From: Bolinopsis microptera
Taxonomy: Eukaryota > Ctenophora > Tentaculata > Lobata > Bolinopsidae
Assembly (NCBI RefSeq): GCF_026151205.1
Contig: NC_087080.1
Location: forward strand, 15,571,337 to 15,635,336
Direction of reading: 5' to 3'
Length of the DNA: 64,000 nt
In this document: in pieces, positions 21,191 through 62,464 of the stretch
Numbering within the stretch: the stretch's first letter is position 1
Layout: every line of letters starts with the position of its first letter
The notes under the pieces: generated by a model
What the model saw: only the letters and a program-made list of their open reading frames with translations
What the model was told of the DNA's origin: nothing
Databases searched by the model: none
Position numbers and translations under genes: made by a program

Positions 21191-21670
21191 ACGTTTGTAC
21201 TAGTTATATGAAAGAAAACGGTACACAAACACATGACTTTACTCAAACTTTTTAATCAACCTCAAACTTTTTTAACAAACATTAATATTTTACATTCTTT
21301 GTAAATTCAAAGTTGAAATTTTCTGAATATCAAACTGGAATGATGTCAAGTCCTCGTATTTATATTTTTCACTCGATCTCATGTTACCGAAAATTTTGTG
21401 TTTAATTTAAGTCTAAAAATCAAGATAAATTCTGATAATCTATCGGTTTAAATTGAGGCAGAAAATACGAGAAATCCCGGCAAAAATTGACAAAAACAGC
21501 CGGGCCGGGGCCGGGATTGGGGGCCGGGATTGGGGGCCTCTGGCCGGGGCCTCTGGCCGGGGCCGGGATTTTGAAAATTATTTTGCCGGGGCCGGGCTGG
21601 GGAAAAAACACAAATCCCGGCCGTATCCGGGGCCGGGGCCGGGATCCCATCGATCACTGCCCAATAGTAT

Positions 21671-36300: not shown

Positions 36301-39300
36301 CAAAAACGGGTGTACAAGGGCAGAGACACCAGCCTCAAGAAACTTAGGAAAGCACTCAGGGAAGGCATCGACATGGGGAAGGATATGATTCGTGCTCACA
36401 CAAAGCTGTCCGGGTGCGAACTCAATATACCTACTGAACCCGACTGTTACACTCTAGTTGATGATGATGACAGGGAAGAGGCTGAGCTTGAGGCTCCCAA
36501 TGATGATGATGATGAAATGGAGATTTATAACCAGTCAACTGGAGTTCTCACAACCGACGGCCGTTGGTACCATGTTGATACTGCTGCTGAGAAGTTCATG
36601 AACGACGGTCGGTCATCAATAGCAGGTCATACACGCCAAAGGAGAATCAAAGGCTACAGTATCGCCAGTGTGTCACTTTCTCGGCCATGTGAATCGCTTG
36701 GAAAAGACTGTAAACGTGTATCAGTATCTGTTGGTGACAAGGGCTGGTTCGACAAGAAAAATTCAAGCAAGCTGTCAAGTTCCGCGGGCAGGCTCTGTTC
36801 ATGTCAACATCGCATATATTCAGCAAGGCTGACACGTCTGTCTGCCGTGTATCCACTAACTCCTTTTGTTCTACCCATCAGAACTATCATGTTTGGGTGA
36901 AGTCTAATGTAGATGGTAAGATTTCGGGGGGGGGATCAGGTACCAAGTGCCGGACATCACGTCGACTAAGTGTAGTTTTGGATATGTTTCACTAGACCCA
37001 CCCACCCCCTTTGCGGTACTAACTGTTTTTTTGGATAATACGTAAGACACCCACCCCTTTTGCCGCCTTTTGCGGTACTAACTGTCGAAAAATCGTGGTA
37101 CTAACTGTTTTTTGGTATATAGAATAAGATACCCACCCAGAAATTGCTTTTTTTTTAAAAGAGCTCAATTAAATTTTAAAGGAAGACTTTACAAAATTTT
37201 AAAAATAAAAAAAAAAACCCAAAAAAAAACTTTAAAAAACCTCAAAACCCATTCCCAAAATTGAAATTTGAGGTAAAATGGGTTTTTTTTTGGGTTAGAC
37301 ACCCCCTTTAGTACCATGTACTAACTGTTTTTCTGGAAAATGGGCAGTAGACCCACCAGTTAGTACCATGTACTAACTGTGTTTTTAGAAGAAAAAATGA
37401 CCCACCCACCAACGTGATGTCCGGTACTAAGTGTATGATCTCCCCCCGAAGATTTACCTATCAAAAGAAGTTTTGAAGATCACAAAGAGAATTTGAAGTT
37501 TTTCTCTATTTTTAATCCTAAGGAATTTAAGCTGTTACTATAACCATAACTACTTTGTGTAATAAGTTTATCTAAAGAAAGATCTGATAGAATATTAATA
37601 TGAATGTGCCATATATAGTCTATATATTATAATATATAATAATGGGTTCAGCCGAAGCTGATTAAATTTCGTTTTAGGGACCCAACTTACCAGATTTTGA
37701 AAGTATGCGAATTTGGCAATAATATTATGTGATGTAGCATTCAAAGACCTTTATAAATCACAATTAATACATCATAATATCTGAATTGTGATAATATCCC
37801 AGTGATTTTGACATTTACGCTTACGTGAGATTGACAAGCAGCTAAACTCCAATTATTAATTAATAGGTAATCGTAGTATTGTATTTTTATTTGTTCACCA
37901 GTTTTGCTGCGTCTTATTTATCTTCTCTGATGTCATACAGTGTAATATACAAAGATACAACGGTGAATACCAATGGATTTATAGATCCATTTCTCTGGGA
38001 TATTTCGTTATTTCTAGAGTAAAAAAATGTTGGTAAAAAATACGAAAAAATACGAAAAAATACGAACGCACCCCTAAAATTTGAAATTCGTATTCGTATT
38101 TTTTGTAGTTGGACCCCCCCCCTAAATATATGGTGTATTATTGAGTTAAATATATAGTGTATTACTGTATCCAATCTATCCAGGCACTAAGCGGTCGGAA
38201 GGTGAACGAGTTGATAGAAGCCACTAGAACATCAGGCAACGTAACAATGAGCTGGGTCCCCAACACATTCTTCCTGATCGTTTTACTGCCTCCCCACAAC
38301 GTAGTCCTGTGGAATGCTGCTTCCGGAACTAGGATCTGGAAACAAACTTTTGTAGATCCTATGTACTCCTTCTCTTTAGGTATTTAAATTCTCAAAGAAT
38401 AGCGGTTAAATATTTCATTGCCTTTTTTATTGTGGTGACTGGTGGAAGAAAGATCATGATTATCTGAATTTCCATTGGATAACTGGATCAATTTTGATAG
38501 TTTATCATTGTCACAATTTAATGACCATGTACCGTTCCATAATCTTCCTTATATTTAATCTCACCACCAAATCATACCAACCTCAGACCCGTTTGACGAA
38601 AGTAGGCTAGTGCTGGTTAGCGACAACTCCCTGATCTTTGTAAATGATCTAGACCTCTGTAAAACCCCAAACAGCCACCCTAAGAAATACCAACTAGCTC
38701 TGGGTAACAAAGGAAGATCTGACTCCCTGCAACCCAGTATTACCGGGGACTACCACCCTCATTCCAACAGCATGCAGGTTCTGTTACAACCTATTCAATA
38801 CCTAATAATACACCAAAATTGGGGATATTAAAATACAAAATTCCTTTCTCTTTGGATCTCTTGTTCCTTCTTCTTCACCTTCTTACATCAGCTATAATAT
38901 ATATATAACAATTAATAATCTTAAAACTCATATATTATAACAGGTTCTAATTCATTACTTGGTTATCCGTCAAAAATCTAAGAACACCCATTGAAGTTAA
39001 AATTGTTGGGGGCATCCACCGCTCCTCTTATAGTTATTTTTGTTATATTCATAATGCTTACTTAGTATGCCTGTAAAAACATATGAACTTAATATACTAT
39101 AATCGTCAGGGTTTAATAAAAGTGGTGCACTCGCCCTACTGTAGAAACAAGCTGCTACTCCTCTACCCAAGACAGATCACTATAATAGATCTGGAGCTCA
39201 TGCACGCTACTGGATACATTCTACAGGTATACATTCTACAGGTATACATTCTACAGGTATACATTCTACAGGTATACTTTCTACAGGTATACATTCTACA

Positions 39301-42300
39301 GGTACTTGATGCTTTTGCAAATTGTCAAACTTAGGACTGCTGCTATGTCAGTACACGACCATACCAGGTCCAAAAGTTTCAAAAAATGGAAAGTAAATAA
39401 ACGGAAAATCATCGAAATATAAAAAGAGATTTTTGATGATTTTTTAATAGAAGCTTTTCTGCGGCCGTCTCCTTGTCCTTGACCCAAATTTCGCAGTTTT
39501 GACTGAATTTTTGACCAGTGACCAATCAGTGAGGTCGGTGAGAGTTTTGAAAATGTCCTACCGGTAGGACATTTTCAAATTTTAGCTTTCCGCGACCCAA
39601 ATTTCACTGTATTGACTAAATTTTTCTTGAATGACCATCTAGCAAGGTTCTGATATGTTAACAAAGATAACACCATACATTGCCCCCGTCTACTTCCCAC
39701 CACCCAGGACCGGGGTTCGTCACAGTTCATAGACATGTATGTGTGTACGAGTGATAACATTATCTACTGCCTACATGATAGTGGTGCTATATCAATAAGG
39801 AGGTTCAGCGATAATGAGACTTATAAACAGGTTACTACACTCTTTATTCTTTAATGTAACTCAATTATAAACTTTTATTATATTAATGCTTTTCAAACAA
39901 ACTTACAACGAATTCTTCATGTAGTGCATCCTGGGTTTCGACAGGATATGCCCGTTTAAAATATTGCCATCACGTTACATTACATAATTATCAATAAATG
40001 TATATTAGATTTGTAGTGTTGTAATTAGTTTAAATTAATATAACTATACACTATACAGGGTGTTTCGTAGGAAGTGTGATTATTGTCCACTTTCATAAGT
40101 TTAAGAGTCTTGTAACTTAGTGTGTACAAATTCCAAACATATTTCAACACCATTAGAGCTTTTCATTTAAAACTAGAAAGCTAGAAGTGAACAAATCATT
40201 TTATGTGAAAGACCCTGTATTAGTCTAGAATTGACTGGCTGAAGCGTTTTACATAGTTAAATAGATCTTAATTTCCCAGGAGAGCTGTTATCAGTGTTTG
40301 GTGGTATCGGAGGCAATGAGGCTGTGTAAGAACGCAAAGCTGATAGGCTTGCAGGTAAATGACGTTCAATTAAACATTTCAGTATTTTTAATGGAACTCT
40401 TAGAATGTGGTACATAGTTAAAATGCCACTGCTTGATGGAACTCTTAGAATGTAGTACATAGTTAAAATACCACTGCTTGATGGAACTCTTAGAATGTAG
40501 TACATAGTTAGATATATTTATATGTTCTATCTAGAGGAGTTATATAGGTATATAGCCTCAATATTTCAATTAAATTACTATAATAACATTTTAATTACAT
40601 AACCTTGACTCCCTAATCCCGCAGGCGAAGCCGTTCACAGAGGAAAAGCTATTGTTCATGTTGACAGACGGGAGGATTGTTGGTTGGAGACTCTTTGACT
40701 GTGATGGTCCTGTTGACTTTCTCAGTGAGGTAATGCTCATTAAATTTAGGCTTTATTTTATAAATACAGTATTTGATATTCAAAGAAAGGTTAGTGAGGT
40801 CTGATCGTCATCTTCTAATACAGCGTTCGATCTCTGTGTGAAAGTGAAATTAAGCGCTTTTAACTACCGTTCACCAGACCTTGACTGCGGCTTTGTTAAC
40901 AAGGTTTGGCCAGTGGAGGGTCCACAGTAGTCCCATCGCCTTAGTATTGCTGTACAAATACTACAAAGAAAGGTTATTAAAATATAAAATGGTCTCGCAA
41001 TATATTAACATAACATGACAATGCGATGATAAACAATCATTGGTTACTAATTCTCTTATAAAATCTAATAAATTCGGTAAAAAATCATTTAAACAAGTTT
41101 AAAGATCTTAATATAAATAATTATCAATGTACCAATCATTAATTTGAGAAACTAGTAGATACAAATAGTCTTGAATATATATGTATTTTTTAATATAAAA
41201 AAACGTCGAAAAATGAGAGGTTTTGTAAATATCAGTGTATTGATAAGTTGACATAACTGTTCAGCTCTTCAGCTCTACCTCAATCGAGTAGATACAGTAA
41301 AGTTATAAAATTACCATAAAAGTACTACAACATCCCCCTGCCCCAGGTGCAATGGGAAGAGGAAGTGAGACTGGTAATGATACACAACACTGGGAGTAAC
41401 AGTTCGCCTCCCTACTCAGCTAAAGTCTGCCCACCTCTCTCCACTAAAAACAGCCATTTCTACCGCCCACTACTCGCTTTAGGTAAGTCTGTCCACCTCT
41501 CTCCACTAAAAACAGTCATTTCTACCGCCCACTACTCGCTTTAGGTAAGTCTGCCCACCTCTCGAGCCACTAAAAACAGTCATTTCTACCGCCCACTACT
41601 CGCTTTAGGTAAGTCTGCCCACCTCTCTCCACTAAAAACAGTCATTTCTACCGCCCACTACTCGCTTTAGGTAAGTCTGCCCACCTCTCTCAACTAAAAA
41701 CAGTCATTTCTACCACCCACTACTTGCTTTAGGTAAGTCTGTCCACCTCTCTCCACTAAAAACAGTCATTTCTACCGCCCACTACTCGCTTTAGGTAAGT
41801 CTGCCCACCTCTCTCCACTAAAAACAGTCATTTCTACCGCCCACTACTTGCTTTAGGTAAGTCTGCCCACCTCTCTCTCCACTAAAAACAGCCATTTCTA
41901 CCGCCCACTACTCGCTTTAGGTAAGTCTGCCCACCTCTCTCCACTAAAAACAGTCATTTCTACCGCCCACTACTCGCTTTAGGTAAGTCTGCCCACCTCT
42001 CTCTCCACTAAAAACAGCCATTTCTACCGCCCACTACTTGCTTTAGGTAAGTCTGCCCACCTCTCTCTCCACTAAAAACAGTCATTTCTACCGCCAACTA
42101 CTCGCTTTAGGTAAGTCTGCCCACCTCTCTCCACTAAAAACAGTCATTTCTACCGCCCACTACTCGCTTTAGGTAAGTCTGCCCACCTCTCTCCACTAAA
42201 AACAGTCATTTCTACCGCCCACTACTCGCTTTAGGTAAGTCTGCCCACCTCTCTCCACTAAAAACAGCCATTTCTACCGCCCACTACTTGCTTTAGGTAA

Positions 42301-45300
42301 GTCTGCCCACCTCTCTCCACTAAAAACAGCCATTTCTACCGCCCACTACTCGCTTTAGGTAAGTCTGCCCACCTCTCTCCACTAAAAACAGTCATTTCTA
42401 CCGCCCACTACTCGCTTTAGGTAAGTCTGCCCACCTCTCGAGCCACTAAAAACAGTCATTTCTACCGCCCACTACTCGCTTTAGGTAAGTCTGCCCACCT
42501 CTCTCCACTAAAAACAGTCATTTCTACCGCCCACTACTCGCTTTAGGTAAGTCTGCCCACCTCTCTCCACTAAAAACAGTCATTTCTACCGCCCACTACT
42601 CGCTTTAGGTAAGTCTGCCCACCTCTCTCCACTAAAAACAGTCATTTCTACCGCCCACTACTCGCTTTAGGTAAGTCTGCCCACCTCTCTCCACTAAAAA
42701 CAGTCATTTCTACCGCCCACTACTCGCTTTAGGTAAGTCTGCCCACCTCTCTCCACTAAAAACAGTCATTTCTACCGCCCACTACTCGCTTTAGGTAAGT
42801 CTGCCCACCTCTCGAGCCACTAAAAACAGCCATTTCTACCGCCCACTACTCGCTTTAGGTAAGTCTGCCCACCTCTCTCCACTAAAAACAGTCATTTCTA
42901 CCGCCCACTACTCGCTTTAGGTAAGTCTGCCCACCTCTCTCCACTAAAAACAGTCATTTCTACCGCCCACTACTCGCTTTAGGTAAGTCTGCCCACCTCT
43001 CTCCACTAAAAACAGTCATTTCTACCGCCCACTACTCGCTTTAGGTAAGTCTGCCACCTCTCGAGCCACTAAAAACAGTCATTTCTACCGCCCACTACTA
43101 GCTTTAGGTAAGTCTGCCCACCTCTCTCTCCACTAAAAACAGTCATTTCTACCGCCACTACTCGCTTTAGTAAGTCTGCCCACCTCTCTCCACTAATAAC
43201 AGTCATTTCTACCGCCCATTACCTACTCGCTTTAGGTAAGTCTGCCCACCTCTCTCCACTAAAAACAGTCAATTCTACCGCCCACTACTCGCTTTAGGTA
43301 AGTCTGCCCACTCTCGAGCCACTAATAACAGTCATTTCTACGCCCACTACTCGCTTAGGTAAGTCTGCTCACCTCTCTCCACTAAAAACAGCCATTCTAA
43401 CCGCCCACTACTCGCTTTAGGTAACGTCTGCCCACCTCTCTCCACTAAAAACAGTCATTTCTACCGCCCCACTACTCGCTTTAGGTAAGTCTGCCCACCT
43501 CTCGAGCCACTAAAAACAGTCATTCTACGCCCACTACTCGCTTTAGGTAAGTCTGCCACCTCTCTCCACTAATAACAGCCATTTCTACGCCCCTACTCGC
43601 TTTTAGGTAAGTCTGCCCACCTCTCTCCACTAAAAACAGTCATTTCTACCCGCCCACTACTCGCTTTAGGTAAGTCTGCCCACCTCTCTCCCACTAATAA
43701 CAGACATTTCTACCGCCCTCTACTCGCTTTAGTAGTCTGGCCCACCTCTCTCCCACTAATAACAGTCATTTCTACCGCCCCACTACTCGCCTTTAGGTAA
43801 GTCTGCCCACCTCTCTCCACTAAAAACAGTCATTTCTACCGCCCACTACTCGCTTTAGGTAAGTCTGCCCACCTCTCTCCAATAAAAACAGTCATTTTCT
43901 ACCGACCCCACTACTCGCTTTAGGTAAGTCTGCCCACCTCTCTCCACTAATAACAGTCATTTCTACCGCCCACTACTCGCTTTAGGTAAGTCTGCCCACC
44001 TCTCTCCACTAATAACAGTCATTTCTACCGCCCACTACTCGCTTTAGGTAAGTCTGCCCACCTCTCTCCACTAAAACAGCCATTTCTACCACCCACTACT
44101 CGCTTTAGGTAAGTCTGCCCCACCTCTCTCCACTAATAACAGGCATTTCTACCACCCACTACTCGCTTTAGGTAAAGTCTGCCCACCTCTCGAGCCACTA
44201 AAAACAGTCATTTCTACCGCCCACTACTCGCTTTAGGTAAGTCTGCCCACCTCTCTCCACTAAAAACAGTCATTTCTACCGCCCACTACTCGCTTTAGGT
44301 AAGTCTGCCCCACCTCTACGAGCCACTAAAAACAGTCATTTCTACCGCCCACTACTCGCTTTAGGTAAGTCTGCCCACCTCTCGAGCCACTAAAAACAGT
44401 CATTTCTACCGCCCACTACTTGCTTTAGGTAAGTCTGCTCACCTCTCTCCACTAATAACAGGCATTTCTACCACCCACTACTCGCTTTAGGTAAGTCTGC
44501 CCACCTCTCTCCACTAAAAACAGCCATTTCTACCACCCACTACTCGCTTTAGGTAAGTCTGCCCACCTCTCTCCACTAATAACAGGCATTTCTACCACCC
44601 ACTACTCGCTTTAGGTAAGTCTGCCCACCTCTCTCCACTAAAAACAGCCATTTCTACCACCCACTACTCGCTTTAGGTAAGTCTGCCCACCTCTCTCCAC
44701 TAATAACAGGCATTTCTACCACCCACTACTCGCTTTAGGTAAGTCTGCCCACCTCTCGAGCCACTAAAAACAGGCATTTCTACCGCCCACTACTCGCTTT
44801 AGGTAAGTCTGCCCACCTCTCTCCACTAAAAACAGTCATTTCTACCGCCCACTACTCGCTTTAGGTAAGTCTGCCCACCTCTCTCCACTAAAAACAGTCA
44901 TTTCTACCGCCCACTACTCGCTTTAGGTAAGTCTGCCCACCTCTCGAGCCACTAAAAACAGCCATTTCTACCGCCCACTACTCGCTTTAGGTAAGTCTGC
45001 CCACCTCTCTCCACTAAAAACAGCATTTCTACCGCCCACTACTCGCTTTAGGTAAGTCTGCCCACCTCTCTCCACTAAAAACAGTCATTTCTACCGCCCA
45101 CTACTCGCTTTAGGTAAGTCTGCCCACCTCTCGAGCCACTAAAAACAGTCATTTCTACCGCCCACTACTCGCTTTAGGTAAGTCTGCCCACCTCTCTCCA
45201 CTAAAAACAGTCATTTCTACCGCCCACTACTCGCTTTAGGTAAGTCTGCCCACCTCTCTCCACTAAAAACAGCCATTTCTACCGCCCACTACTCGCTTTA

Positions 45301-48300
45301 GGTAAGTCTGCCCACCTCTCGAGCCACTAAAAACAGTCATTTCTACCGCCCACTACTCGCTTTAGGTAAGTCTGCCCACCTCTCTCCACTAAAAACAGTC
45401 ATTTCTACCGCCCACTACTCGCTTTAGGTAAGTCTGCCCACCTCTCGAGCCACTAAAAACAGTCATTTCTACCGCCCACTACTCGCTTTAGGTAAGTCTG
45501 CCCACCTCTCTCCACTAAAAACAGGCATTTCTACCGCCCACTACTCGCTTTAGGTAAGTCTGCCCACCTCTCTCCACTAAAAACAGTCATTTCTACCGCC
45601 CACTACTCGCTTTAGGTAAGTCTGCCCACCTCTCTCCACTAAAAACAGTCATTTCTACCGCCCACTACTCGCTTTAGGTAAGTCTGCCACCTCTCTCCAC
45701 TAAAAACAGTCATTTCTACCGCCCACTACTCGCTTTAGGTAAGTCTGCCCACCTCTCTCCACTAAAAACAGTCATTTCTACCGCCCACTACTCGCTTTAG
45801 GTAAGTCTGCCCACCTCTCTCCACTAAAAACAGTCATTTCTACCGCCCACTACTCGCTTTAGGTAAGTCTGCCCACCTCTCGAGCCACTAAAAACAGTCA
45901 TTTCTACCGCCCACTACTCGCTTTAGGTAAGTCTGCCCACCTCTCTAGCCACTAAAAACAGTCATTTTCTACCGCCCACTACTCGCTTTAGGTAAGTCTG
46001 CCCACCTCTCTCCACTAAAAACAGTCATTTCTACCGCCCACTACTCGCTTTAGGTAAGTCTGCCCACCTCTCTCCGCTAAAAAACAGCCATTTCTACCGC
46101 CCACTACTCGCTTTAGGTAAGTCTGCCCACCTCTCTCCACTAAAAACAGTCATTTCTACCGCCCACTACTCGCTTTAGGTAAGTCTGCTCACCTCTCGTG
46201 CCACTAAAAACAGTCATTTCTACCGCCCACTACTCGCTTTAGGTAAGTCTGCCCACCTCTCGAGCCACTAAAAACAGTCATTTCTACCGCCCACTACTCG
46301 CTTTAGGTAAGTCTGCCCACCTCTCGCCACTAAAAACAGTCATTTCTACCGCCCACTACTCGCTTTAGGTAAGTCTGCCCACCTCTCTCCACTAAAAACA
46401 GTCATTTCTACCGCCCACTACTCGCTTTAGGTAAGTCTGCCCACCTCTCGAGCCACTAAAAACAGTCATTTCTACCGCCCACTACTCGCTTTAGGTAAGT
46501 CTGCCCACCTCTCTCCACTAAAAACAGTCATTTCTACCGCCCACTACTCGCTTTAGGTAAGTCTGCCCACCTCTCTCCACTAAAAACAGTCATTTCTACC
46601 GCCCACTACTCGCTTTAGGTAAGTCTGCCCACCTCTCGAGCCACTAAAAACAGTCATTTCTACCGCCCACTACTCGCTTTAGGTAAGTCTGCCCACCTCT
46701 CGAGCCACTAAAAACAGCCATTTCTACCGCCCACTACTCGCTTTAGGTAAGTCTGCCCACCTCTCAGCCACTAAAAACAGTCATTTCTACCGCCCACTAC
46801 TCGCTTTAGGTAAGTCTGCCCACCTCTCGACCACTAAAAACAGTCATTTCTACCGCCCACTACTCGCTTTAGGTAAGTCTGCCCACCTCTCTCCACTAAA
46901 AACAGTCATTTCTACCGCCCACTACTCGCTTTAGGTAAGTCTGCCCACCTCTCTCCACTAAAAACAGTCATTTCTACCGCCCACTACTCGCTTTAGGTAA
47001 GTCTGCCCACCTCTCTCCACTAAAAACAGTCATTTCTACCGCCCACTACTCGCTTTAGGTAAGTCTGCCCACCTCTCGAGCCACTAAAAACAGTCATTTC
47101 TACCGCCCACTACTCGCTTTAGGTAAGTCTGCCCACCTCTCTCCACTAAAAACAGTCATTTCTACCGCCCACTACTCGCTTTAGGTAAGTCTGCCCACCT
47201 CTCGCCACTAAAAACAGTCATTTCTACCGCCCACTACTCGCTTTAGGTAAGTCTGCCCACCTCTCTCCACTAAAAACAGTCATTTCTACCGCCCACTACT
47301 CGCTTTAGGTAAGTCTGCCCACCTCTCTCCACTAAAAACAGTCATTTCTACCGCCCACTACTCGCTTTAGGTAAGTCTGCCCACCTCTCTCCACTAAAAA
47401 CAGTCATTTCTACCGCCCACTACTCGCTTTAGGTAAGTCTGCCCACCTCTCGAGCCACTAAAAACAGTCATTTCTACCGCCCACTACTCGCTTTAGGTAA
47501 GTCTGCCCACCTCTCGAGCCACTAAAAACAGTCATTTCTACCGCCCACTACTCGCTTTAGGTAAGTCTGCCCACCTCTCTCCACTAAAAACAGTCATTTC
47601 TACCGCCCACTACTCGCTTTAGGTAAGTCTGCCCACCTCTCGAGCCACTAAAAACAGTCATTTCTACCGCCCACTACTCGCTTTAGGTAAGTCTGCCCAC
47701 CTCTCTCCACTAAAAACAGTCATTTCTAACCGCCCACTACTCGCTTTAGGTAAGTCTGCCCACCTCTCTAGCCACTAAAAACAGTCATTTCTACCGCCCC
47801 ACTACTCGCTTTAGGTAAGTCTGCCCCCCACCTCTCTCCACTAAAAACAGTCATTTCTACCGCCCACTACTCGGCTTTTAGGTAAGTCTGCCCACCTCTC
47901 GCCACTAAAAAAGTCATTTCTACCGCCCACTACTCGCTTTAGGTAAGTCTGCTCCACTCTCGAGCCACTAAAAACAGTCATTTCTACCGCCCACTACTCG
48001 CTTTAGGTAAGTCTGCCCACCTCTCGAGCCACTAAAAACAGTCATTTCTCCGCCCACTACTCGCTTTAGGTAAGTCTGCCCACCTCTCGAGCCACTAAAA
48101 ACAGTCATTTCTACCGCCCACTACTCGCTTTAGGTAAGTCTGCCCACCTCTCTCCACTAAAAAACAGTCATTTCTACCGCCCACTACTCGCTTTAGGTAA
48201 GTCTGCCCACCTCTCGCCACTAAAAACAGTCATTTCCGCCCACTACTCGCTTTAGGTAAGTCTGCCCACCTCTATCCACTAAAAACAGTCATTTCTACCG

Positions 48301-51300
48301 CCCACTACTCGCTTTAGGTAAGTCTGCCCCACCTCTCGAGCCACTAAAAAACAGTCATTTCTACCGCCCACTACTCGCTTTAGGTAAGTCTGCCCACCTC
48401 TCTCCACTAAAAACAGTCATTTCTACCGCCCACTACTCGCTTTAGGTAAGTCTGCCTCACCTCTCGGCCACTAAAAACAGCCATTTCTACCGCCCACTAC
48501 TCGCTTTAGGTAAGTCTGCCCACCTCTCTCCACTAAAAACAGTCATTTCTACCGCCCACTACTTGCTTTAGGTAAGTCTGCTCACCTCTCGAGCCACTAA
48601 AAACAGCCATTTCTACCGCCCACTACTCGCTTTAGGTAAGTCTGCCCACCTCTCTCCACTAAAAACAGTCATTTCTACCGCCCACTACTGCTTTAGGTAA
48701 GTCTGCTCACCTCTCGAGCCACTTAAAACAGCCCATTTCTACCGCCCACTAATCGCTTTAGGTAAGGTCTTGGCCCACCTCTTCTCCACTAAAAAACAGT
48801 CATTCTAATTCTTTCTTACCGCACACTACTCTCTTTAGTTAAGTCTGCTCCCAACTCGCTCCACATAAACATCCATTACTACCCCCAGCCTACACGCTTA
48901 AGGTAAGTCTGCCCACCTCCTCCACTAAAAACAGCCATTTCTTTCTATCGCGCCACTACGTGCTTAGGTTAAGCTGTGCCCTCACTCTCCACATGAAAAA
49001 CAGCGCCATGCAGACCAGCCCACTACGCCGTTATAAGTGAAGGATATGTTATACTCGTCTGACTGTGCCCACCTCTCTCCACATAAAAAACAGCCTTTTC
49101 TACGCCCACTACGCGCTTATAGAATCTGGAATCTGGGTGCCCTCGCTCTCTCCACTAAAAAACAGCCAGTTCGACCAGCCCCGACTCGAATTTAGTAATC
49201 TGGCCTGACCCACCGTTCGCCTCTAAAAACTGTCATTTCTACCGCCCAACCCTGTTACTTCGCACTTCCTTAGGTTAGTCGGCCCACCTCCCTCCACTAA
49301 AAAACAGCCCATTTTCTCCCGCCACTACTGTGGGGGCGCTTTAATAATCTGCCCACCGCTTCTCCTCTAAAAACAGCCTTTACTACCGCCCACCCTACGT
49401 CGCTTAGGTAAGTCTGCTGTGGCCCACTCTCTCCACTAAAAACATTCATTTCTACTCCCACTACTACTCGCTTTTATAATTTCTGCTGCCCGACCTCTCA
49501 TCTCACTAACAAACAGTCATTCAAACCGCTCCACTAGACTCGAGTTAGGTGAAGTCTGCCCACCACTCTCCACTAAAAACAGAACTCATTTCCTACCGCC
49601 CACTACCGCTTCGGTAAGTCCGGTGTCACCCCCCTCTCACCACTAATAACATCCCGTTCTACCGCCCCACTTATTTCTTAGTAAGTCTGCGAGGCCCACC
49701 TCTCTCCACTAAAAAACATCCATTTCCTTCGTACACGCCCACTACTCGCTTTAGGCGTAATCCTGTTTCTGGCCGCACCCTCTCTCCACTAAAGAACAGT
49801 CCATTTCTTTTTCTATCTAACCGCCACTATACGCTTAGTATGTACTGCCCACGCTCTCCCTCCGACTAAAAACCATCATTTCTTCTACCGCCCACTACTC
49901 GCTTTAGGTAAGTCTGCCCACCTCTCTCCACTAATAACAGCTATTCTACCGCCCACTACTCGCTTTAGTAAGGTCTGCCCACCTCTCTCCACTAAATAAC
50001 AGTCATTTCTACCGCCCACTACTCGCTTTAGGTTAGTCTGTCCCACCTCTCTCCACTAAAAACAGTCATTTCTACTAATTCTACCGCCCACTACTCGCTT
50101 TAGGTAAGTCTGCCCAACCTCTCTCCGCTAAAAACAGCCAGTTCTACCGCCACTGCACTACTCGGCTTTAGGGTAAGTCTGTGCCCACCTCTCCACTACT
50201 AACAGCATTTCTACCGCCCACAACTCTCGTTTATGTAAAGTCGTCTGCCCACCTCTCTCCACCTAAACAACACCAAAGCACACACCTACTTCTACGCCCA
50301 CTACTCGGACTTTCACGGAAATGACTGCCCACCTCTCGAGCCACTACCAAACAGTCATTTCTACCGCCCACTACTCGCTTTCGGTACGTCTGCCCACCTC
50401 TCTCCACAAATAAATTAACAGGCATTTACTACCACCCACTCACTCCGCTTTAGGTAGTACTTGCTCACCTCTCTCCACTAAAAACAGTCATTTCTACCGC
50501 CCACTACTCGCTTTAGGTAAGTCTGCCCACCTCTCGAGCCACTAAAAACAGTCATTTCTACCGCCCACTACTCGCTTTAGGTAAGTCTGCCCACCTCTCG
50601 AGCCACTAAAAACAGTCATTTCTACCGCCCACTACTCGCTTTAGGTAAGTCTGCCCACCTCTCGAGCCACTAAAAACAGCCATTTCTACCGCCCACTACT
50701 CGCTTTAGGTAAGTCTGCCCACCTCTCTCCACTAAAAACAGTCATTTCTACCGCCCACTACTCGCTTTAGGTAAGTCTGCCCACCTCTCGAGCCACTAAA
50801 AACAGTCATTTCTACCGCCCACTACTCGCTTTAGGTAAGTCTGCCCACCTCTCGAGCCACTAAAAACAGTCATTTCTACCGCCCACTACTCGCTTTAGGT
50901 AAGTCTGCCCACCTCTCGAGCCACTAAAAACAGTCATTTCTACCGCCCACTACTCGCTTTAGGTAAGTCTGCCCACCTCTCTCCACTAAAAACAGTCATT
51001 TCTACCGCCCACTACTCGCTTTAGGTAAGTCTGCCCACCTCTCTAGCCACTAAAAACAGTCATTTCTACCGCCCACTACTCGCTTTAGGTAAGTCTGCCC
51101 ACCTCTCTCCACTAAAAACAGTCATTTCTACCGCCCACTACTTGCTTTAGGTAAGTCTGCCCACCTCTCGAGCCACTAAAAACAGTCATTTCTACCGCCC
51201 ACTACTCGCTTTAGGTAAGTCTGCCCACCTCTCTCCACTAAAAACAGTCATTTCTACCGCCCACTACTCGCTTTAGGTAAGTCTGCCCACCTCTCTCCAC

Positions 51301-53576
51301 TAAAAACAGTCATTTCTACCGCCCACTACTCGCTTTAGGTAAGTCTGCCCACCTCTCGCCACTAAAAACAGTCATTTCTACCGCCCACTACTCGCTTTAG
51401 GTAAGTCTGCCCACCTCTCTCCACTAAAAACAGTCATTTCTACCGCCCACTACTCGCTTTAGGTAAGTCTGCCCACCTCTCGAGCCACTAAAAACAGTCA
51501 TTTCTACCGCCCACTACTCGCTTTAGGTAAGTCTGCCCACCTCTCTCCACTAAAAACAGTCATTTCTACCGCCCACTACTCGCTTTAGGTAAGTCTGCCC
51601 ACCTCTCTCCACTAAAAACAGTCATTTCTACCGCCCACTACTCGCTTTAGGTAAGTCTGCCCACCTCTCTCCACTAAAAACAGTCATTTCTACCGCCCAC
51701 TACTCGCTTTAGGTAAGTCTGCCCACCTCTCGAGCCACTAAAAACAGTCATTTCTACCGCCCACTACTCGCTTTAGGTAAGTCTGCCCACCTCTCTAGCC
51801 ACTAAAAACAGTCATTTCTACCGCCCACTACTCGCTTTAGGTAAGTCTGCCCACCTCTCGCCACTAAAAACAGTCATTTCTACCGCCCACTACTCGCTTT
51901 AGGTAAGTCTGCCCACCTCTCTCCACTAAAAACAGTCATTTCTACCGCCCACTACTCGCTTTAGGTAAGTCTGCCCACCTCTCTCCACTAAAAACAGTCA
52001 TTTCTACCGCCCACTACTCGCTTTAGGTAAGTCTGCCCACCTCTCTCCACTAAAAACAGTCATTTCTACCGCCCACTACTCGCTTTAGGTAAGTCTGCCC
52101 ACCTCTCTCCACTAAAAACAGTCATTTCTACCGCCCACTACTCGCTTTAGGTAAGTCTGCCCACCTCTCGCCACTAAAAACAGTCATTTCTACCGCCCAC
52201 TACTCGCTTTAGGTAAGTCTGCCCACCTCTCGAGCCACTAAAAACAGTCATTTCTACCGCCCACTACTCGCTTTAGGTAAGTCTGCCCACCTCTCTCCAC
52301 TAAAAACAGTCATTTCTACCGCCCACTACTCGCTTTAGGTAAGTCTGCCCACCTCTCGAGCCACTAAAAACAGTCATTTCTACCGCCCACTACTCGCTTT
52401 AGGTAAGTCTGCCCACCTCTCGAGCCACTAAAAACAGCCATTTCTACCGCCCACTACTCGCTTTAGGTAAGTCTGCCCACCTCTCTCCACTAAAAACAGT
52501 CATTTCTACCGCCCACTACTCGCTTTAGGTAAGTCTGCCCACCTCTCTCCACTAAAAACAGTCATTTCTACCGCCCACTACTCGCTTTAGGTAAGTCTGC
52601 CCACCTCTCTCCACTAAAAACAGTCATTTCTACCGCCCACTACTCGCTTTAGGTAAGTCTGCCCACCTCTCGAGCCACTAAAAACAGTCATTTCTACCGC
52701 CCACTACTCGCTTTAGGTAAGTCTGCCCACCTCTCTCCACTAAAAACAGCCATTTCTACCGCCCACTACTCGCTTTAGGTAAGTCTGCCCACCTCTCTCC
52801 ACTAAAAACAGTCATTTCTACCGCCCACTACTCGCTTTAGGTAAGTCTGCCCACCTCTCTCCACTAAAAACAGTCATTTCTACCGCCCACTACTCGCTTT
52901 AGGTAAGTCTGCCCACCTCTCTCCACTAAAAACAGTCATTTCTACCGCCCACTACTCGCTTTAGGTAAGTCTGCCCACCTCTCTCCACTAAAAACAGTCA
53001 TTTCTACCGCCCACTACTCGCTTTAGGTAAGTCTGCCCACCTCTCTCCACTAAAAACAGTCATTTCTACCGCCCACTACTCGCTTTAGGTAAGTCTGCCC
53101 ACCTCTCTCCACTAAAAACAGCCATTTCTACCGCCCACTACTCGCTTTAGGTAAGTCTGCCCACCTCTCTCCACTAAAAGCAGTCATTTCTACCACCCAC
53201 TATAACTACTCGCTTTAGGTAAACTTTATTTGAACATTCTCTTAATCTTGCTCTACAGTTGCAGTAATATCATAATCTAGTTTTCACTTTTCAGTCTTGG
53301 GCTACCTTTTTTAAAAGATGCTGAAATCATTTGAATTTATCTGATTTTATGATACGTACATCAAAATTATCCTATTTTCTCGATCTTATCAATGTGCTAA
53401 CTAAAACCCACTAATCTAAAACTGTCCAGGCTCCCACTCAGGATCTATACTGATAGTTGACCTGACGACAACTAAAACAATAAAAGAGTTCACATTACAC
53501 ACCTCACCTGTCTGTGGTATTGAGTGGGTCGCTAACAGACGGATCATATCTTACAGCAACAATATCGGTGGTTCTG
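27316..53576 (+). CDS. wdr11: WDR11 orthologue, exons 1-10 (N-terminal 455 codons)
   Basis: Exons: 27,316-27,492; 27,713-27,811; 38,184-38,379; 38,587-38,777; 39,110-39,226; 39,708-39,830; 40,280-40,354; 40,625-40,729; 41,347-41,482; 53,430-53,576, all GT-AG and all joining in frame. The reading follows animal WDR11 in order: ALDWGPQGLIAYG (19-31), LLASGDKSGRVIVWE (78-92), PHNVVLWNAASGTRIWK (about 130-147), SFSLGDPFD across the exon 3/4 joint, NKLLLLYPRQITIIDLEL (exon 5), IIYCLHDSGAISIR (exon 6), LLFMLTDGRIVGW (exon 8), VCPPLSTKN..YRPLLALG (exon 9) and GSILIVDLTTTKTIKEFTLH (exon 10). WDR11 is a WD40 beta-propeller scaffold that, with FAM91A1, tethers endosome-derived vesicles at the trans-Golgi, and is linked to Hedgehog signalling in vertebrates (established). 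It normally has about 1,200 residues; the second half is not found before the window ends. Introns 2 and 9 (10.4 and 11.9 kb) are filled with repeats while the others are 200-620 bp. Exons 5 and 9 end in tandemly amplified donors. Confidence 0.93.
27962..28065. repeat. Left half of a 10-kb-spaced inverted repeat in WDR11 intron 2
   Basis: TAGGGGGGG then TCCAACTAC and several CGTATTTTTT units. The reverse complement of the same pattern ends the intron at 38,031-38,124. The central ACGCACCCCTAAAATTT block is inverted between the two ends. Confidence 0.8.
28180..28440. repeat. Two further GGGGG-tipped AT-rich elements
   Basis: At about 28,182 (CTGGGGGTGCAACAACAAAAAC) and 28,316 (GGGGGAGGGGGGGTCCAACCCG) the same plan as 27,962 recurs: a G run, a CAAC word, then short AT-rich units. 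Diverged relatives; no gene. Confidence 0.5.
28856..29268. repeat. G-rich minisatellite, 10-bp unit TTTGTCGGGG, in two about 207-bp copies
   Basis: A 207-bp block (GGCATCATGTAGCCGGTGGG leader, then about 15 units of TTTGTCGGGG with CAGGG and GTGTC variants, then ATTCGTTAATAA) is tandemly duplicated at 28,856 and 29,063. The same 10-bp unit forms another array at 33,738-33,868. Runs of four G every 10 bp could form G-quadruplexes on the + strand. The ORFs across it (for example GFVGVCRGLS repeats) are by-products. Confidence 0.95.
29335..29450. repeat. Tandem duplication of about 70 bp
   Basis: GTGCTTGACCCTCCTGCCCC occurs at about 29,354 and 29,410, each followed by CACATGGAT, so a short unit is present about twice. 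Confidence 0.85.
29655..30741. mobile_element. 1.09-kb non-autonomous DNA transposon with 27-bp TIRs
   Basis: The ends are 27-bp inverted repeats with one mismatch (tip TACGGGTA then TGCCTCACAGAATGGCC). The core word TGCCTCACA[G/A]AATGGCC occurs about three times near the left end (29,672; 29,849; 30,013) and its complement about four to five times near the right (30,183 to 30,728), so the subterminal sites point inward. A 14-bp near-identical flank (ATTGAATTATTTAG / ATTGAATTATGTAG) lies on each side. No intact transposase ORF. I do not recognise the superfamily. Confidence 0.85.
30757..31570. other. Intronic, unassigned
   Basis: AT-rich WDR11 intron 2 sequence without recognised exons. It runs up to the truncated 5' end of the LINE that follows. 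Confidence 0.4.
31571..32956 (+). CDS. 5'-truncated LINE reverse transcriptase (open frame)
   Basis: The frame is open from 31,571, before the first Met at 31,637 (GIILRATSSKVLQMVLLKRL), and ends at 32,956, so the first exon-like start is only the truncation point. RT motifs are complete: GFRRNRSCIDQI, motif A FIDFKAAFDSI, motif B GQGDIQGPPVFNL, catalytic box YADDLAVM, then GLKINAKKTQ and YLGANIS, and a C-terminal region with YGAEVWNTT, RLRWYGHVVRMP and GRPRKGW. This C-terminal signature fits the RTE-type or related LINEs; the N-terminal endonuclease is absent. No stop or frameshift in 439 codons, so the insertion is young. It sits in the sense orientation in WDR11 intron 2. Dead-on-arrival copy by truncation. 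Confidence 0.93.
   Translation, partial: GSIYCCNNRGIILRATSSKVLQMVLLKRLDVGMECLLRENQCGFRRNRSCIDQIYSIRTIIHNCIEFNIPLYVNFIDFKAAFDSIRREFIWSSMRHYGLPEKYVRIFQAFFNGTMSAVRVNGEMSDWFSVNSCTGQGDIQGPPVFNLCLNFGIFLAEVHKAISHGAVLQKELKGADEKVIMDSDYADDLAVMDNTEEGLQESTDLIAYYTSYAGLKINAKKTQCMAISKCASQRPYTERDSIKLTVEGEPVEQVSNFVYLGANISGDGTIDRDLDIRIQRANGAFHQLWKIWNSRTITTPTKIHIYKAAVITILLYGAEVWNTTKKQMKRFEVFHLTSLRRILKIKWFFHVSNEEVLRRAGIKSIETFIGAARLRWYGHVVRMPETRFPNFLLDWKPNYGKRLRGRPRKGWMACVLEDAAEFTGVDNISRDAVKQLALKRVEWRNMLRRRRDVCDAGHSND
32957..33725. other. LINE 3' region and non-coding flank
   Basis: Immediately after the LINE stop comes GAGGAGACCTCTTCATGTAG and a CATGTATGTATTGG end, a probable 3' UTR; no clear poly-A tail is seen. 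Downstream sequence has CGCGC-rich words (33,405-33,500) and no exon. Confidence 0.45.
33738..33870. repeat. Second TGTCGGGGTT minisatellite
   Basis: About 12 units of TTTGTCGGGG with ATATG and TCTG variants, introduced by CTCGACACGTCGGG as at 28,900. It is followed by GGCTACATGATGCC, the reverse complement of the leader found at 28,858-28,872. Confidence 0.93.
33889..35945. repeat. 2-kb polypyrimidine tract, (CCT)n with CAGT interruptions
   Basis: Nearly pure C/T on the + strand, built of CCTCCT runs with regular CAGTCC or GAGTCC interruptions and larger internal duplications (for example the GTCCTCGTTCTCGTCC segments near 34,136 and 35,128). Long Ser-, Pro- or Arg-rich ORFs on both strands are consequences of the repeat. 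Such homopurine-homopyrimidine DNA can form triplex (H-DNA). Confidence 0.95.
35943..37496 (+). pseudogene. Broken transposase-like gene, unclassified
   Basis: After the polypyrimidine tract a non-repetitive frame starts with GNHVCEKWKVKGKHF and continues to about 36,757. Visible are HFVSDSCEQLFAFLRTGF and GRQTNLSSASVVHGAARKN, a spacing that recalls the C-terminal part of some DNA-transposon transposases, then an acidic stretch (DDDDREEAELEAPNDDDDEME) and KGYSIASVSL. At the A-run in GACAAGAAAAATTC (about 36,752-36,765) the frame shifts by one: the conserved-looking continuation is FKQAVKFRGQALFMSTSHIF and VWVKSNVDGK. A 524-bp MITE then interrupts it; beyond it IYLSKEVLKITKRI ends at 37,496. 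The N-terminus is missing or replaced by the repeat. I cannot name the family; the transposase call is inference. Confidence 0.6.
36925..37448. mobile_element. 524-bp MITE inserted in the transposase-like gene
   Basis: AAGATTT flanks it (36,918-36,924 and 37,449-37,455), a 7-bp target-site duplication. The TIRs begin CGGGGGG..GATCA and continue with CCGGACATCACGT on both ends. The interior has repeated phrases GTACTAACTGTTTTT and CCCACCC and A/T runs. Excision restores the reading frame DGKIYLSKE. Confidence 0.88.
37500..38030. other. Intronic, unassigned
   Basis: AT-rich WDR11 intron 2 sequence, no recognised gene. Confidence 0.35.
38031..38124. repeat. Right half of the 10-kb-spaced inverted repeat
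   Basis: Reverse complement of the 27,962 pattern: AAATACGAAAA units, then GTAGTTGGACCCCCCCCC and TA. It ends 59 bp before WDR11 exon 3. Confidence 0.8.
39211..39306 (+). repeat. 15-bp exon-end/donor tandem repeat at WDR11 exon 5
   Basis: Exon 5 ends ATACATTCTACAG (to 39,226). Five further copies of GTATACATTCTACAG follow (39,227-39,301; one has CTTTC), then GTACTTG. Each copy begins with a usable donor (CAG|GTATAC), and because the unit is 15 bp each later donor adds VYILQ in frame. The junction to exon 6 is in frame from any of them. Confidence 0.95.
40056..40217. mobile_element. 162-bp mariner-type MITE
   Basis: Flanked by TA; the tips CAGGGTGTTTC and, on the other strand, CAGGGTCTTTC match at 10 of 11 bases. 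Inside WDR11 intron 6. Confidence 0.75.
40385..40510. repeat. Tandem repeat, about 47-bp unit, nearly 3 copies
   Basis: TGGAACTCTTAGAATGT then GTACATAGTTA and CACTGCTTGA recur in WDR11 intron 7. Confidence 0.92.
41478..41488 (+). promoter_or_regulatory. Presumed 5' splice site of WDR11 exon 9
   Basis: TTTAG|GTAAGT at 41,482/41,483 is the first donor and the only one that leaves exon 9 at its conserved length and joins in frame (phase 1) to exon 10 at 53,430. Nearly 190 equivalent donors follow. Confidence 0.75.
48760..50465. repeat. Highly degraded segment of the minisatellite
   Basis: Here nearly every unit has scattered single-base insertions, deletions and substitutions, while units on both sides are almost identical to the consensus. 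Milder damage is seen at about 43,050-44,200 and 47,720-48,350. The pattern (random indels, sharp borders) is like uncorrected long-read sequence and may not be biological. Confidence 0.8.
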
Positions 53577-54381: not shown

Positions 54382-55455
54382 TTACTCTGCAATTATCGCA
54401 GGAGTTTCTTGTTCCGTACTTCCATTACCGTTTCTAGGTCCTTTCCGTCTGATACTATAACTGGAAGTGTACGTTACATGAGTGTCACATTTCACCGTTT
54501 GGTATGTTTTCTCCTGGATCTTCTTTTCCAGTGAACGATCAAAGTACTTCCTCATAGCCTCAAAGCCCAGTTCCATTAATGCTACAGCTACAATCAAGAG
54601 AAGCATTTGAAACAACATGCTTAAAAATCTTGGGCCCGGATTTTCATAGCCTGGTCCAAAAATGTGCTGTTCTCCGAATCCGATCGTTGTCATGCCATTT
54701 ATGATATAGCAGTAGATCCCCTCTGTGAGACTCCATACTCTAGAATACCCCACTTTTGTATACTTTTTCTTGGTTGCATCGTCAGTACTGTACTGGTATA
54801 CCATTTTTGTCGAAATATATCCTTGAAGGACTATGTACACCACTCCCAATTTAATGGCTAGCGCAGCAACAATCTTATAGTTTCCAAACCACTTCTTTAC
54901 GAAAGCTGAAGTTCTGCGAATTCGTTTGTTAGATTTCGTAATCCTGACGACCAGCCCGATCAAGGCAGAGACGAGTGGTAGTCCAATCATGGCATAGACT
55001 ATGGTAAAACTCTTATACAGTATAGATGTAGGTTTCCGTAATCCCCATCCAGTGGTGGATATTATACTGAAACTGTAAAGCATAGTGTCCATAAACTTCA
55101 TGCTGTTCCATCCATACAAATCAAGTTTAGCAAGTTTACATTCTAAGTCCGCTTTTCTAAAGATGCGATTGTAAAACTGTCCGTAATCCTCCATTGATTT
55201 GTTCGCAATATTTGATTTATTAAATTCTGCTTGTTCAATGAACAATTCATAATTGATTACTTTAGCGTTGTTACCCTCAATTCCTGAAAACACCAAGGCT
55301 CCGAACATTAAGAAGATGGCTAGGGCTTGAACAATCCAAGTAGTTTTATTAAAGAAATATGCCGATAAAGATTCTCGCATTATCATGAACCACTCCTCGT
55401 GCAGTGAGCTATTGCTAGTTTCCTTCTCTTCTTCTAGTACAATGTTTTCTTCCAT
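54382..55455 (-). CDS. Two-pore-domain (K2P) potassium channel A, intronless, 357 aa
   Basis: Topology is that of K2P leak channels: TM1 (about 41-57), a long extracellular cap region with several potential N-glycosylation sites (NKS), pore helix and filter 1 (STTGWG, 133-138), TM2 (149-171), TM3 (196-216), pore 2 (TTIGFG, 256-261), TM4 (277-300). K2P dimers pass background K+ current across the plasma membrane. Filter 1 has GWG, with Thr in place of the usual Ile before it, where GYG (rarely GFG) is standard, and Leu follows where K2Ps have a polar residue; filter 2 is canonical followed by Glu. C-terminal tail is short, basic then Ser/Thr/Glu-rich. The gene is one exon; ATG at 55,455 gives the acidic N-terminus MEENIVLEEE. 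Subfamily cannot be assigned. It lies antisense to WDR11, possibly within its intron 10, and is a diverged paralogue of the gene at 62,465. Confidence 0.92.
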   Translation of the reverse strand: MEENIVLEEEKETSNSSLHEEWFMIMRESLSAYFFNKTTWIVQALAIFLMFGALVFSGIEGNNAKVINYELFIEQAEFNKSNIANKSMEDYGQFYNRIFRKADLECKLAKLDLYGWNSMKFMDTMLYSFSIISTTGWGLRKPTSILYKSFTIVYAMIGLPLVSALIGLVVRITKSNKRIRRTSAFVKKWFGNYKIVAALAIKLGVVYIVLQGYISTKMVYQYSTDDATKKKYTKVGYSRVWSLTEGIYCYIINGMTTIGFGEQHIFGPGYENPGPRFLSMLFQMLLLIVAVALMELGFEAMRKYFDRSLEKKIQEKTYQTVKCDTHVTYTSSYSIRRKGPRNGNGSTEQETPAIIAE

Positions 55456-58400
55456 TATGTTTTGACTTCCTTGGTTGTGAGGATTTCGGTTATTCTTTAC
55501 ACGATTTGAAAATTTATTTTTGTATAGTAATATAAAAAAGTGAATAATAAAAATGAAAATAAGAATTTTCCACGCTTTGACAGTCCAGTTGGTGATAGAA
55601 CTTACGGTAGAACTAGAGGAAGCGATAGCTCACCGCGACCGGTCACCGCTGGTAAATTAATATTGCGACGGTGAACTTTTATGAGATCTCTGAATAGACA
55701 TGGTATTTAAAGAACTAGTTGAGGTAGAAAACAGACACTATACGGCGACCTGAAAGACGAAGGCGAAAAAGCAATGAATGAAAGCAATGGACAGGAAGCA
55801 ACAGGAGTAAGAACTGCAAACCTAGCAATTACAAAATATTTTAACCTTAAATAAATAATAGGTAAATAATGTAGAGAATAGGGCCAAGTCTAGCATTATG
55901 TCATTATTTAAATAATCGCCTCCAAAAAAGTTTAAACGGTAACATTAATGCTGCCTAATTGTTTTTTAAAGTCTCACAAAAAATAACTCTCAAGCCCACA
56001 GACACTCAAATAATGTCCTCCGAACATGTTAATGTCACTCCCTAGTTGAGCATTAATATTCAATTATTAGGACACAACAATATTCTTATATTAGAACATG
56101 GGGACCATTCCGGAAATGCTCGATTAAAATCGAAACAGGGTGGTGCTCGATTTTAAGTGCTCGATTTAAGTGCTCGATTTTATCCGGGTATTTCCGGTAT
56201 GGTGACAAACAAAAAAGGGAAAGTCGACGCCATTAAATAAGGAATATCGATATGAGAATGGCATAAATGTTCAGAAATTGCTCCCGACAGGTTTACCGTA
56301 CAGATTTCGACAGCGGTAATAGCAAAAAATTATAACCAATTCTATTTAAGGCTATTTCTGCATTATAATATATCCCACAAAAATGAGTAGTACAGTAAAA
56401 CGTTCAAATGGTCAGAATCATGAAATCACAAATTTGGGATATTATGAAATTAAAAGGCAAGGGGAAAAGTTAGAAAATACTGAAGACATCAAAATCAATT
56501 TAAAATAGGAAAAAGCAGTTGTTGGTAGTATAAAAGAAGCCCGACCATTCCGCGTTGAACGAAGTCCGTATACCTAAGCACTAAGCACTAAGCACTAAGC
56601 ACTGAGCGGGTGCCTGTTAGTATAAAACGATGCACACTTAAGAATGTGGGTTCGTACAATTAAACGTGGTAGGTATAAACATGAACGTTCGAAATGAAAT
56701 CGACTATCATAGGAAATACAACCGATACCGAGAGGGAAATTGCAGTGGGTACCCGAATATGCTTTCTTCTAGCCTGTCCCCACGACAATGGGAAATTGCA
56801 GTGGGTACCCGAATATGCTTTCTCCTAGCCTGCCCCCACGACAATAAAGGAACCGATACACTGATATCATTATCAGAGATTTGAAGCAGAAAAAAAACGG
56901 CATTTTACCAAAGAGCTGAATATTCATATTACTATTAATCTAATACAATGCATTATATAATAACCAATACAGGAAAAGTCTCTCAACACAACAGTGCAGC
57001 GGTTTACATTAGTTTCCCACAATATTCTCAATTTCCGTCATCAGCGATGAAAGCCACTCAACAGTCAACACAACTGAAGTAAACTGAAGTACCGGAATGA
57101 ATCTACAAAAAAATATCAATTATCACCATTCAAAAGTGCGATGTGAAACATATTGGATCATAAACTTCCAAACGATATATAATATGACACGATTGCACCT
57201 ATTCATCAATCATCTTCAAAGAAATAAAATTACAGACTTGACGGACGAGTGTGTGATTATCGTATATTAGTATATATAATCGCTAAGTCATTAACGAAGA
57301 GTAACTGAATAAGCCAAAGAGGCCTAATGATCAAGCTATTATTATTGCAGCCAGATTTCTTACGCAAATCATATTCTGTGCGGAAATAGGAAGCATGGCC
57401 AAGAGACGATGCAAAATATAGAGCAATCTTAACTACCACAGCGCTGTAAGTTGTATACTTGTATAGCCCTGTCCCTTTGTGTTAATGTTAGTACTTTTCA
57501 ATCATATCAAGTTCAAATAAAGTTTATTTTCTTGCAGTTTTTATATTATTGAAAGTAGATTGTCCGTGAGAGGCGTGGATAATTACAATGTGGCAAATTT
57601 ACACCTCTATTGTAACTAAATCGATTATATTTTGAAGAAATTTGTCGAATTGAAGAATCAGTTTGAGATAACAAAACACAATTTGTTAAAATAATACAAA
57701 ATTAAAATAAATAAAAATAAAATTAACAAGACGAAGTATGCGAAAATGGGACGTAAAAAGACAAATAAAAACTTTCGAGTGTTTATAAAATTCTAAAGTG
57801 GACTGATAATTCGATTATTTGATCACTTTGATTCTAATAATACACACATCATTCGTTCTAAATATAGAAATCAAACGATACCGTCCTCACCAAGTAGCTG
57901 AATATCTTATTGTAATAATTTTAGATATGCGGCAGTCAAGCTATTACGTTATCTCCAGGGTTTTGCACAAACCTGCTGATAATATGAAAGTACGGACATT
58001 CTAATAAAAATTGAAAAAACACAAAAGAGAATGAAAACGGCGGCCGACGAATATGATTCACAAGCACATACAATTTCATAAGCACGATATTGAAAATTAT
58101 GAAATTGTTACTCAATCTCATAATCATGGTAATGCCAAATAGTGAAAATATGCTTAATCTCGGTCTAGAAGACTAAGTTATAGAGGCAGAGTTTAAAGAG
58201 CTGGTAGCGGGAAATCTTACCAACTTCCAGCCGTTCAATTTGAAAGTCGGAATTATCTTGCTGCACTCGGATCGTTCTGATTATATACTCTTGAACAGTT
58301 GCTTTTAATAGCTACCACCGAATATCACTCAATACAGTTGTATCAATAATTTGCCGTTCCTCATATTTGATTCTTAGTTGTATAGTTAAGGTGAGAGGTA

Positions 58401-62372: not shown

Positions 62373-62464
62373 CTGTTTACCAATTACCTGAGAAAACACA
62401 AAAGTGTTAGCAGTTTTCAGAGTTTAAAACGTAGTGGCAGCAAGTTTCAAACTTCAGTTAAAGA

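Follow-up and report, generated by a model that had tools for sequence, protein, structure and literature searches.

In the ctenophore Bolinopsis microptera (order Lobata), most of WDR11 intron 9 consists of a tandem array whose unit combines the end of exon 9 with a splice donor. The array is an extreme, anatomically clean case of the exon-boundary minisatellites known from amphioxus as mirages, and on balance we favour the reading that its units are self-removable. The cell can probably take the array out by many routes and yet make the same message.

WDR11 intron 9 contains an array that repeats the end of exon 9

The window, by which we mean the whole stretch of 64,000 nt that was analysed (C9:15571337-15635336), lies inside a single-haplotype assembly of 264.65 Mb in 232 contigs. 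From P0004, the public protein model NCBI Bolinopsis microptera WDR11-like isoform X2, 21 coding exons were placed by tblastn and GT/AG boundaries; they extend from position 27316 of the window to position 71725 once the downstream sequence is joined on. When assembled, these first 21 coding exons translate into 905 amino acids identical to residues 1-905 of P0004. A search with the peptide of exons 8-10 gave a single match at E <= 0.001 among 30 candidates, again P0004, with 100% identity over the aligned 75% of the query. The gene and exon named in the original prediction are likewise borne out by the stretch spanning exons 9 and 10, which aligns without gaps to human WDR11 (8xfb_D 464-534) and is identical in P0004. 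In this public isoform X2 model the two exons are joined with one unit's coding text, and the repeated block appears once (...CPPLSTKNSHFYRPLLALG|SHSGSILIVDL...). Intron 9 measures 11,947 nt and the remaining 19 introns between 102 and 10,909 nt. The array and its surroundings comprise the following features:

41347..41482, + strand: WDR11 exon 9 (136 nt), with a gapless human WDR11 alignment across the joint with exon 10, identical to P0004
41423-41482, + strand: 3′-terminal 60 nt of exon 9, the copy of the repeat unit that lies in the exon
41483..53218, + strand: 184 tandem units of ~62 nt, consensus GTAAGTCTG...CGCTTTAG, from TRF, alignment and splice-site scores
48762..50516, strand not applicable: insertion-rich block (units 117-141), by its error profile probably poorly polished long-read sequence
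53219..53429, + strand: what presumably remains of the ancestral intron 9 (211 nt), from its old donor GTAAAC to the acceptor of exon 10
53430..53576, + strand: WDR11 exon 10, from the human WDR11 alignment and identical to the P0004 model

TRF places the array at 41423-53202, and wrap-around (cyclic) alignment of 41483-53218 to the 62-nt consensus resolves 184 units, each a GT...AG segment reading GTAAGT...CGCTTTAG. The intron 9 region holds TTTAGGTAA 160 times and perfect AGGTAAGT 159 times. TRF, the alignment and these junction counts together confirm the array as assembled, and the roughly 190 units first claimed come down to 184. The array alignment and the gene model also uphold the proposed composition of exon end plus donor, a repeat unit that lies across the exon-intron boundary as in a mirage. 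The first donor has its G at 41483. GTAAAC follows directly on the end of the last unit at 53218, so the old donor is indeed present at the far edge of the array, and position 53576, where the originally delimited interval stops, is the end of exon 10. Extra inserted bases near the 3′ end of the terminal unit are as expected for a minisatellite edge. The 211-nt remnant is most simply the ancestral intron, its size being usual for the gene.

An exact 22-nt junction probe found 144 matches in the whole 264.65-Mb assembly, none in reverse and none with a reversed control. All 144 fall in the window's array, and by this one exact probe the array is present at the WDR11 locus only. Introner elements are dispersed intron-making repeats; the probe shows no such dispersal among genes.

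We infer that a short tandem duplication captured the last 60 nt of exon 9 together with the first bases of the donor. Their join would have placed GTAAGT, a hybrid donor stronger than the old one, right behind the TTTAG with which the exon ends. Slippage between TAAA in the exon and TAAA in the old donor, as first written, is rejected, for it predicts GGTAAAGTCTG at the join, one A too many, whereas the units read GGTAAGTCTG. Judged by these letters, the join would fit an AA register (2 nt) shared by GGTAAAC of the old donor and CTAAAGTCTG of the exon, or TAAA slippage followed by the loss of one A.

Unit junctions combine a strong donor with a credible acceptor

Splice sites were scored with position weight matrices from 23 reference introns, 19 from WDR11 and four from a neighbouring kelch gene (24.6-26.9 kb). 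Two of the six kelch junctions were omitted (no solution; 8 mismatches), and of the four retained one shows 3 mismatches; the four kelch introns in the dual-site array test and the branch-site search described below were not quite the same, the one with 8 mismatches being among them. The array donor reaches 11.3 bits, above all 23 reference donors (23/23), and the old GTAAAC donor 6.8 bits, above nine of the 23. With the WDR11 introns alone the scores are 11.4 versus 5.5 bits, above 17 and three of the 19 donors, respectively, and both sets bear out the claim that the hybrid donor is stronger than the old one. The acceptor at the unit end scores 7.1 bits and exceeds 12 of the 23 reference acceptors (12 of 20 in WDR11 alone). 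Every other GT or AG in the rest of the unit scores 0 or less, the best donor and the best acceptor both lying at the junction, and in a 200-kb genomic sample only two of the 728 AGGT sites found on the + strand reach both unit scores. The junction thus has the make-up of a recursive splice site, a juxtaposed acceptor and donor of real strength around AG|GT. Enrichment of 5- and 6-mers over 24 introns was uninterpretable as to a branch-site motif, none being derivable from so few introns.

The original prediction was right about the gene, the unit and the old and hybrid donors and wrong about the letters of the slippage. Its reading of the array as a series of repeated donors holds as far as it goes but is incomplete: it missed the credible acceptor that coincides with the unit boundary.

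Outside the noisy block (159 units), GT is intact in 159 units, AG in 157 and GTAAGT in 156. Substitutions were analysed in 158 units, with units 117-141 and 184 left out, and in a stricter set of 113 well-resolved units. The larger set contains 21 distinct substitution alleles at 17 positions, GTAAGT and TTTAG being free of them (P = 0.013 for the 11 core positions); the stricter set has 11 alleles and gives P = 0.11 for the same positions. GCTTTAG|GTAAGTCTG, at 16 nt, is the longest substitution-free run of the unit (P = 0.055, 158 units). Constraint at the splice junction positions is weak and suggestive only.

Many removal routes would converge on one mRNA

As the exon's TTTAG end is also a passable 3′ splice site, each unit would run from a strong GT to an AG, and intact junctions read AG|GTAAGT. 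Splicing of any donor to any later acceptor would restore an identical junction with fewer units left, and the first donor would therefore need no special recognition. Since the junctions are recursive-type sites, splice order should matter little. Direct, stepwise (recursive) and out-of-order routes would all converge on one mRNA if the last unit can be removed, and a unit could act either as an intron or as a cryptic exon, with identical donors competing. Such convergence would hide the array from selection and make it nearly neutral, letting the intron expand from 211 nt to ~12 kb. A narrower proposal, which we offer tentatively and at somewhat less than an even chance, is that recursive splicing takes intron 9 out stochastically and in no fixed order, through scores of identical AG|GTAAGT sites. 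The array would then be a natural path-independent substrate, on which routes may differ from molecule to molecule and a fraction of molecules may strand one 62-nt unit with its stop.

These routes were followed in a toy path model with uniformly random donor and acceptor choices, a set minimum intron length and the old GTAAAC donor included. With a 60-nt minimum, the correct mRNA resulted in 300/300 cases on an ideal array and in 286/300 on the assembled array. Minima of 70 and 100 nt gave 163/300 and 172/300 correct products on the ideal array, with exactly one unit kept in 137/300 and 128/300 (43-46%), and 155/300 and 178/300 correct products on the assembled array. An earlier simulation that ignored the old GTAAAC donor (160/200 correct at 60 nt, 113/200 at 100 nt) is superseded by this one. 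The shortest among the 23 other introns has 102 nt, so a 62-nt unit may be too short to excise, which makes the stranded unit a real possibility, as an outcome of the model rather than an observation. Retention of one to seven consensus units brings a stop after 426 residues in 7/7 cases, within the first retained unit each time, and the idea that a retained unit serves as coding sequence was rejected on this ground. That retention would bring a stop, and yet the public P0004 model lacks an extra unit, speaks for a mirage of self-removable units; against it stands the TAG acceptor of the units, 19 of the 20 WDR11 acceptors being CAG.

If the internal junctions are used, the locus offers a natural experiment on splice-site choice, with ~184 near-identical intron units in series, in which the sequence tags of the units (58 types among 158 units) could show which donor and which acceptor were used. 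It bears on the course of recursive splicing, on the shortest intron that a ctenophore can remove and on harmless intron growth.

Comparison with known repeat introns and recursive splice sites

Amphioxus mirages are described as minisatellite-like duplications of exon-intron boundaries, on either side, in Adh3, the globins BflGb6 and BflGb9 and troponin C, with similar repeats in PGBD5; in these accounts, regular splicing is undisturbed though many repeats hold AG/GT (PMC3087553, PMC3902484). The WDR11 array is like them in that the unit spans the exon-intron boundary, many units carry AG/GT and the edge copies escape homogenisation (PMC3087553, PMC3902484). It is unlike them in copy number, BflGb6 having 3 and 6 units in the two haplotypes reported (PMC3087553, PMC3902484) and WDR11 184, in that nearly all units outside the noisy block start with GTAAGT (156/159), and in that the WDR11 duplication itself would have made the strong donor, in a different phylum. 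What WDR11 adds to the amphioxus cases is its scale, a hybrid donor of greater strength, another phylum and three further arrays at exon edges of this gene. A ctenophore thereby joins amphioxus as a host of exon-boundary minisatellites, and one of its genes has four such arrays. Among the papers listed in the literature searches none describes a ctenophore case, which does not prove absence from print.

Intron gain by tandem duplication of AGGT (the Rogers model; ATP2A1) likewise involves GT...AG units whose removal restores the peptide, as outlined in PMC4974935. The WDR11 duplication differs in that it took in a donor already present and lengthened an intron already in place. It opened no new intron position, the 211-nt remnant having its own donor and acceptor. 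Fission-yeast introns built of 24-nt repeats (SPOG_01682, SOCG_00815) are similar in being exon-derived and in containing proto-splice sites (PMC3629103); the repeat site is AGGC according to PMC3629103 and AGGT according to PMC4974935. These introns of exonic origin have few repeats, across four and two duplicates (PMC4974935).

In Drosophila, a recursive site consists of a 3′ and a 5′ splice site set side by side around AG/GT (PMC6110457) and is said to need a cryptic exon of ~50 nt with a downstream donor (PMC8605326). Like such ratchet points, each 62-nt WDR11 unit would supply a juxtaposed AG|GT and a downstream donor. Fly ratchet points are few per very long intron, whereas the candidate sites in WDR11 recur every 62 nt with identical donors.

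Exon-edge arrays recur in WDR11

Four exons of WDR11 (5, 9, 14 and 20) have an array at their edge. Those other than exon 9 are the following:

39110-39226, + strand: WDR11 exon 5, whose donor is spanned by a 15-nt array
39214..39304, + strand: donor-side array of exon 5, 15-nt unit GTATACATTCTACAG, ~6 copies, 6 matches to ACAGGTA
L009 4343-4922 (C9:15639679-15640258): acceptor-side array of exon 14, 73-nt unit, 8 matches to TTTAGGTACC
L009 6819-7447 (C9:15642155-15642783): donor-side arrays of exon 20, 86-nt and then 14-nt units, 28 exact matches to TGTTAGGTAC

All three are phased AG|GT, and P0004 contains the coding text of each once. The units at exon 14 repeat TTTATTTAG|GTACCGTG with eight junctions; at exon 20, 86-bp units with long G runs precede ~29 copies of the 14-bp GTACATTCTGTTAG. 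By permutation, four of 19 arrays hold an exon boundary versus 2.6 expected (p 0.21-0.23), and three of 18 when the 12-kb array is left out (p 0.21), the 14-nt array of exon 20 being counted on its own, as an array without the boundary. As these values are not significant and AG|GT is expected at most donors, we claim recurrence of exon-edge arrays in WDR11 and not an attraction of arrays to exon edges. No exon-edge array was seen in the neighbouring kelch gene in a comparison by eye.

Minisatellites are abundant in this genome: 200 kb (20 loci of 10 kb, from C1 and C2 only) contain 124 arrays with a period of 8 or more. AGGT/ACCT occurs in 30 of the units of this sample versus 23.7 expected, a ratio of 1.26 and the fifth highest among 4-mers. 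Good AG|GT dual sites were found in four arrays; the reversed control had seven, and shuffles averaged 3.7. A genome-wide process favouring AG|GT arrays is unsupported by this C1/C2 sample. In the 104 kb around WDR11 (59 arrays), dual sites numbered three versus none reversed and 0.8 in shuffles, or, with a looser threshold, eight versus one and 1.8. One of the three, in L010, is of TTCTTC type and is not known to lie at an exon edge. The same applies to an 8-bp array, CCAG|GTAA, with 5.4 copies in AG|GT phase at L009 9649-9691.

Assembly, direct splicing and function as alternative explanations

Per kb, units 117-141 show 147 insertions, 73 substitutions and 16 deletions, as against 8-11 substitutions and 2-4 insertions in units 1-25, 54-99 and 142-184 (common GA variant uncounted); error rates are intermediate in units 26-53 and 100-116. 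The account in PMC10232365 gives wtdbg, then gap closing with TGS-GapCloser and polishing with Pilon for the B. microptera assembly, and PacBio CLR or HiFi libraries for three species; presumably the input was CLR and the present assembly is the published one. From the error profile and this pipeline we infer that the block is poorly polished long-read sequence. The copy number is therefore uncertain, 184 being an assembly estimate, and both the unit number and the internal variation should be read with the noisy middle in mind. One could go further and suppose that the array is real but far shorter, and that the assembler and gap filling inflated or mis-joined it. The raw-read-like, insertion-biased errors, the pipeline and the lack of a second haplotype copy by exact probe in the whole assembly would all agree with such a mainly technical origin, but the noisy block is itself 1.75 kb of array and is flanked by 116 and 43 units. 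The 158 units outside it, terminal unit excluded, are diverse (58 types), and alleles cluster locally there, 27T occurring only in units 28-52 and 44A being confined to unit 4 and units 42-52. We consider this origin improbable.

A mirage of the assembled size might still be passive, with donor 41483 spliced to the exon 10 acceptor in one step and the internal AG|GT sites idle. Regular splicing of amphioxus mirages is reported to stay intact despite AG/GT repeats (PMC3087553), TAG acceptors are rare in WDR11 (1/20), and the gene has introns of 10.4 and 10.9 kb that contain no exon-edge array. However, the intact donors do not differ from one another and rank with the best references, so that many equal competitors lie between the first donor and exon 10, and, if an internal donor were used first, a correct mRNA would demand internal acceptors. 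Splicing in one step only is possible but rather unlikely in our estimation. Far less probable is a selected function of the array as a splicing-rate timer, a regulated source of poison exons or a local U1 sink. U1 is very abundant, and a single locus is therefore unlikely to titrate it. The absence of substitutions at the splice-junction positions outside the noisy block would suit a function, as would the stop brought in by a retained unit, which a regulated non-productive isoform would also show. Minisatellites are common in the genome, though, the 200-kb sample shows no enrichment of AG|GT dual sites, and mild constraint at the junctions is expected from the need for correct removal alone.

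Further sequence features in the WDR11 region

Several other elements lie within or near WDR11. Long open frames at 31571-32956 (+), in intron 2, and at 19635-21203 (-) resemble by eye the reverse transcriptase of non-LTR elements. Intron 2 also contains, at 33921-35944, ~2 kb of a degenerate TCC-rich tandem repeat, several consensus units of which have CCAG and CTCAG ends. Arrays of the decamer GTCGGGGTTT occupy 28855-29270 and 33744-33867 of the window, including a near-perfect duplication of 207 bp. Nested in intron 10 on opposite strands are two related, intronless-looking open frames (54382-55629, -; 62462-63646, +), potassium-channel-like by eye; database relatives of the former (92%, 92% and 67% identity) carry PF07885.
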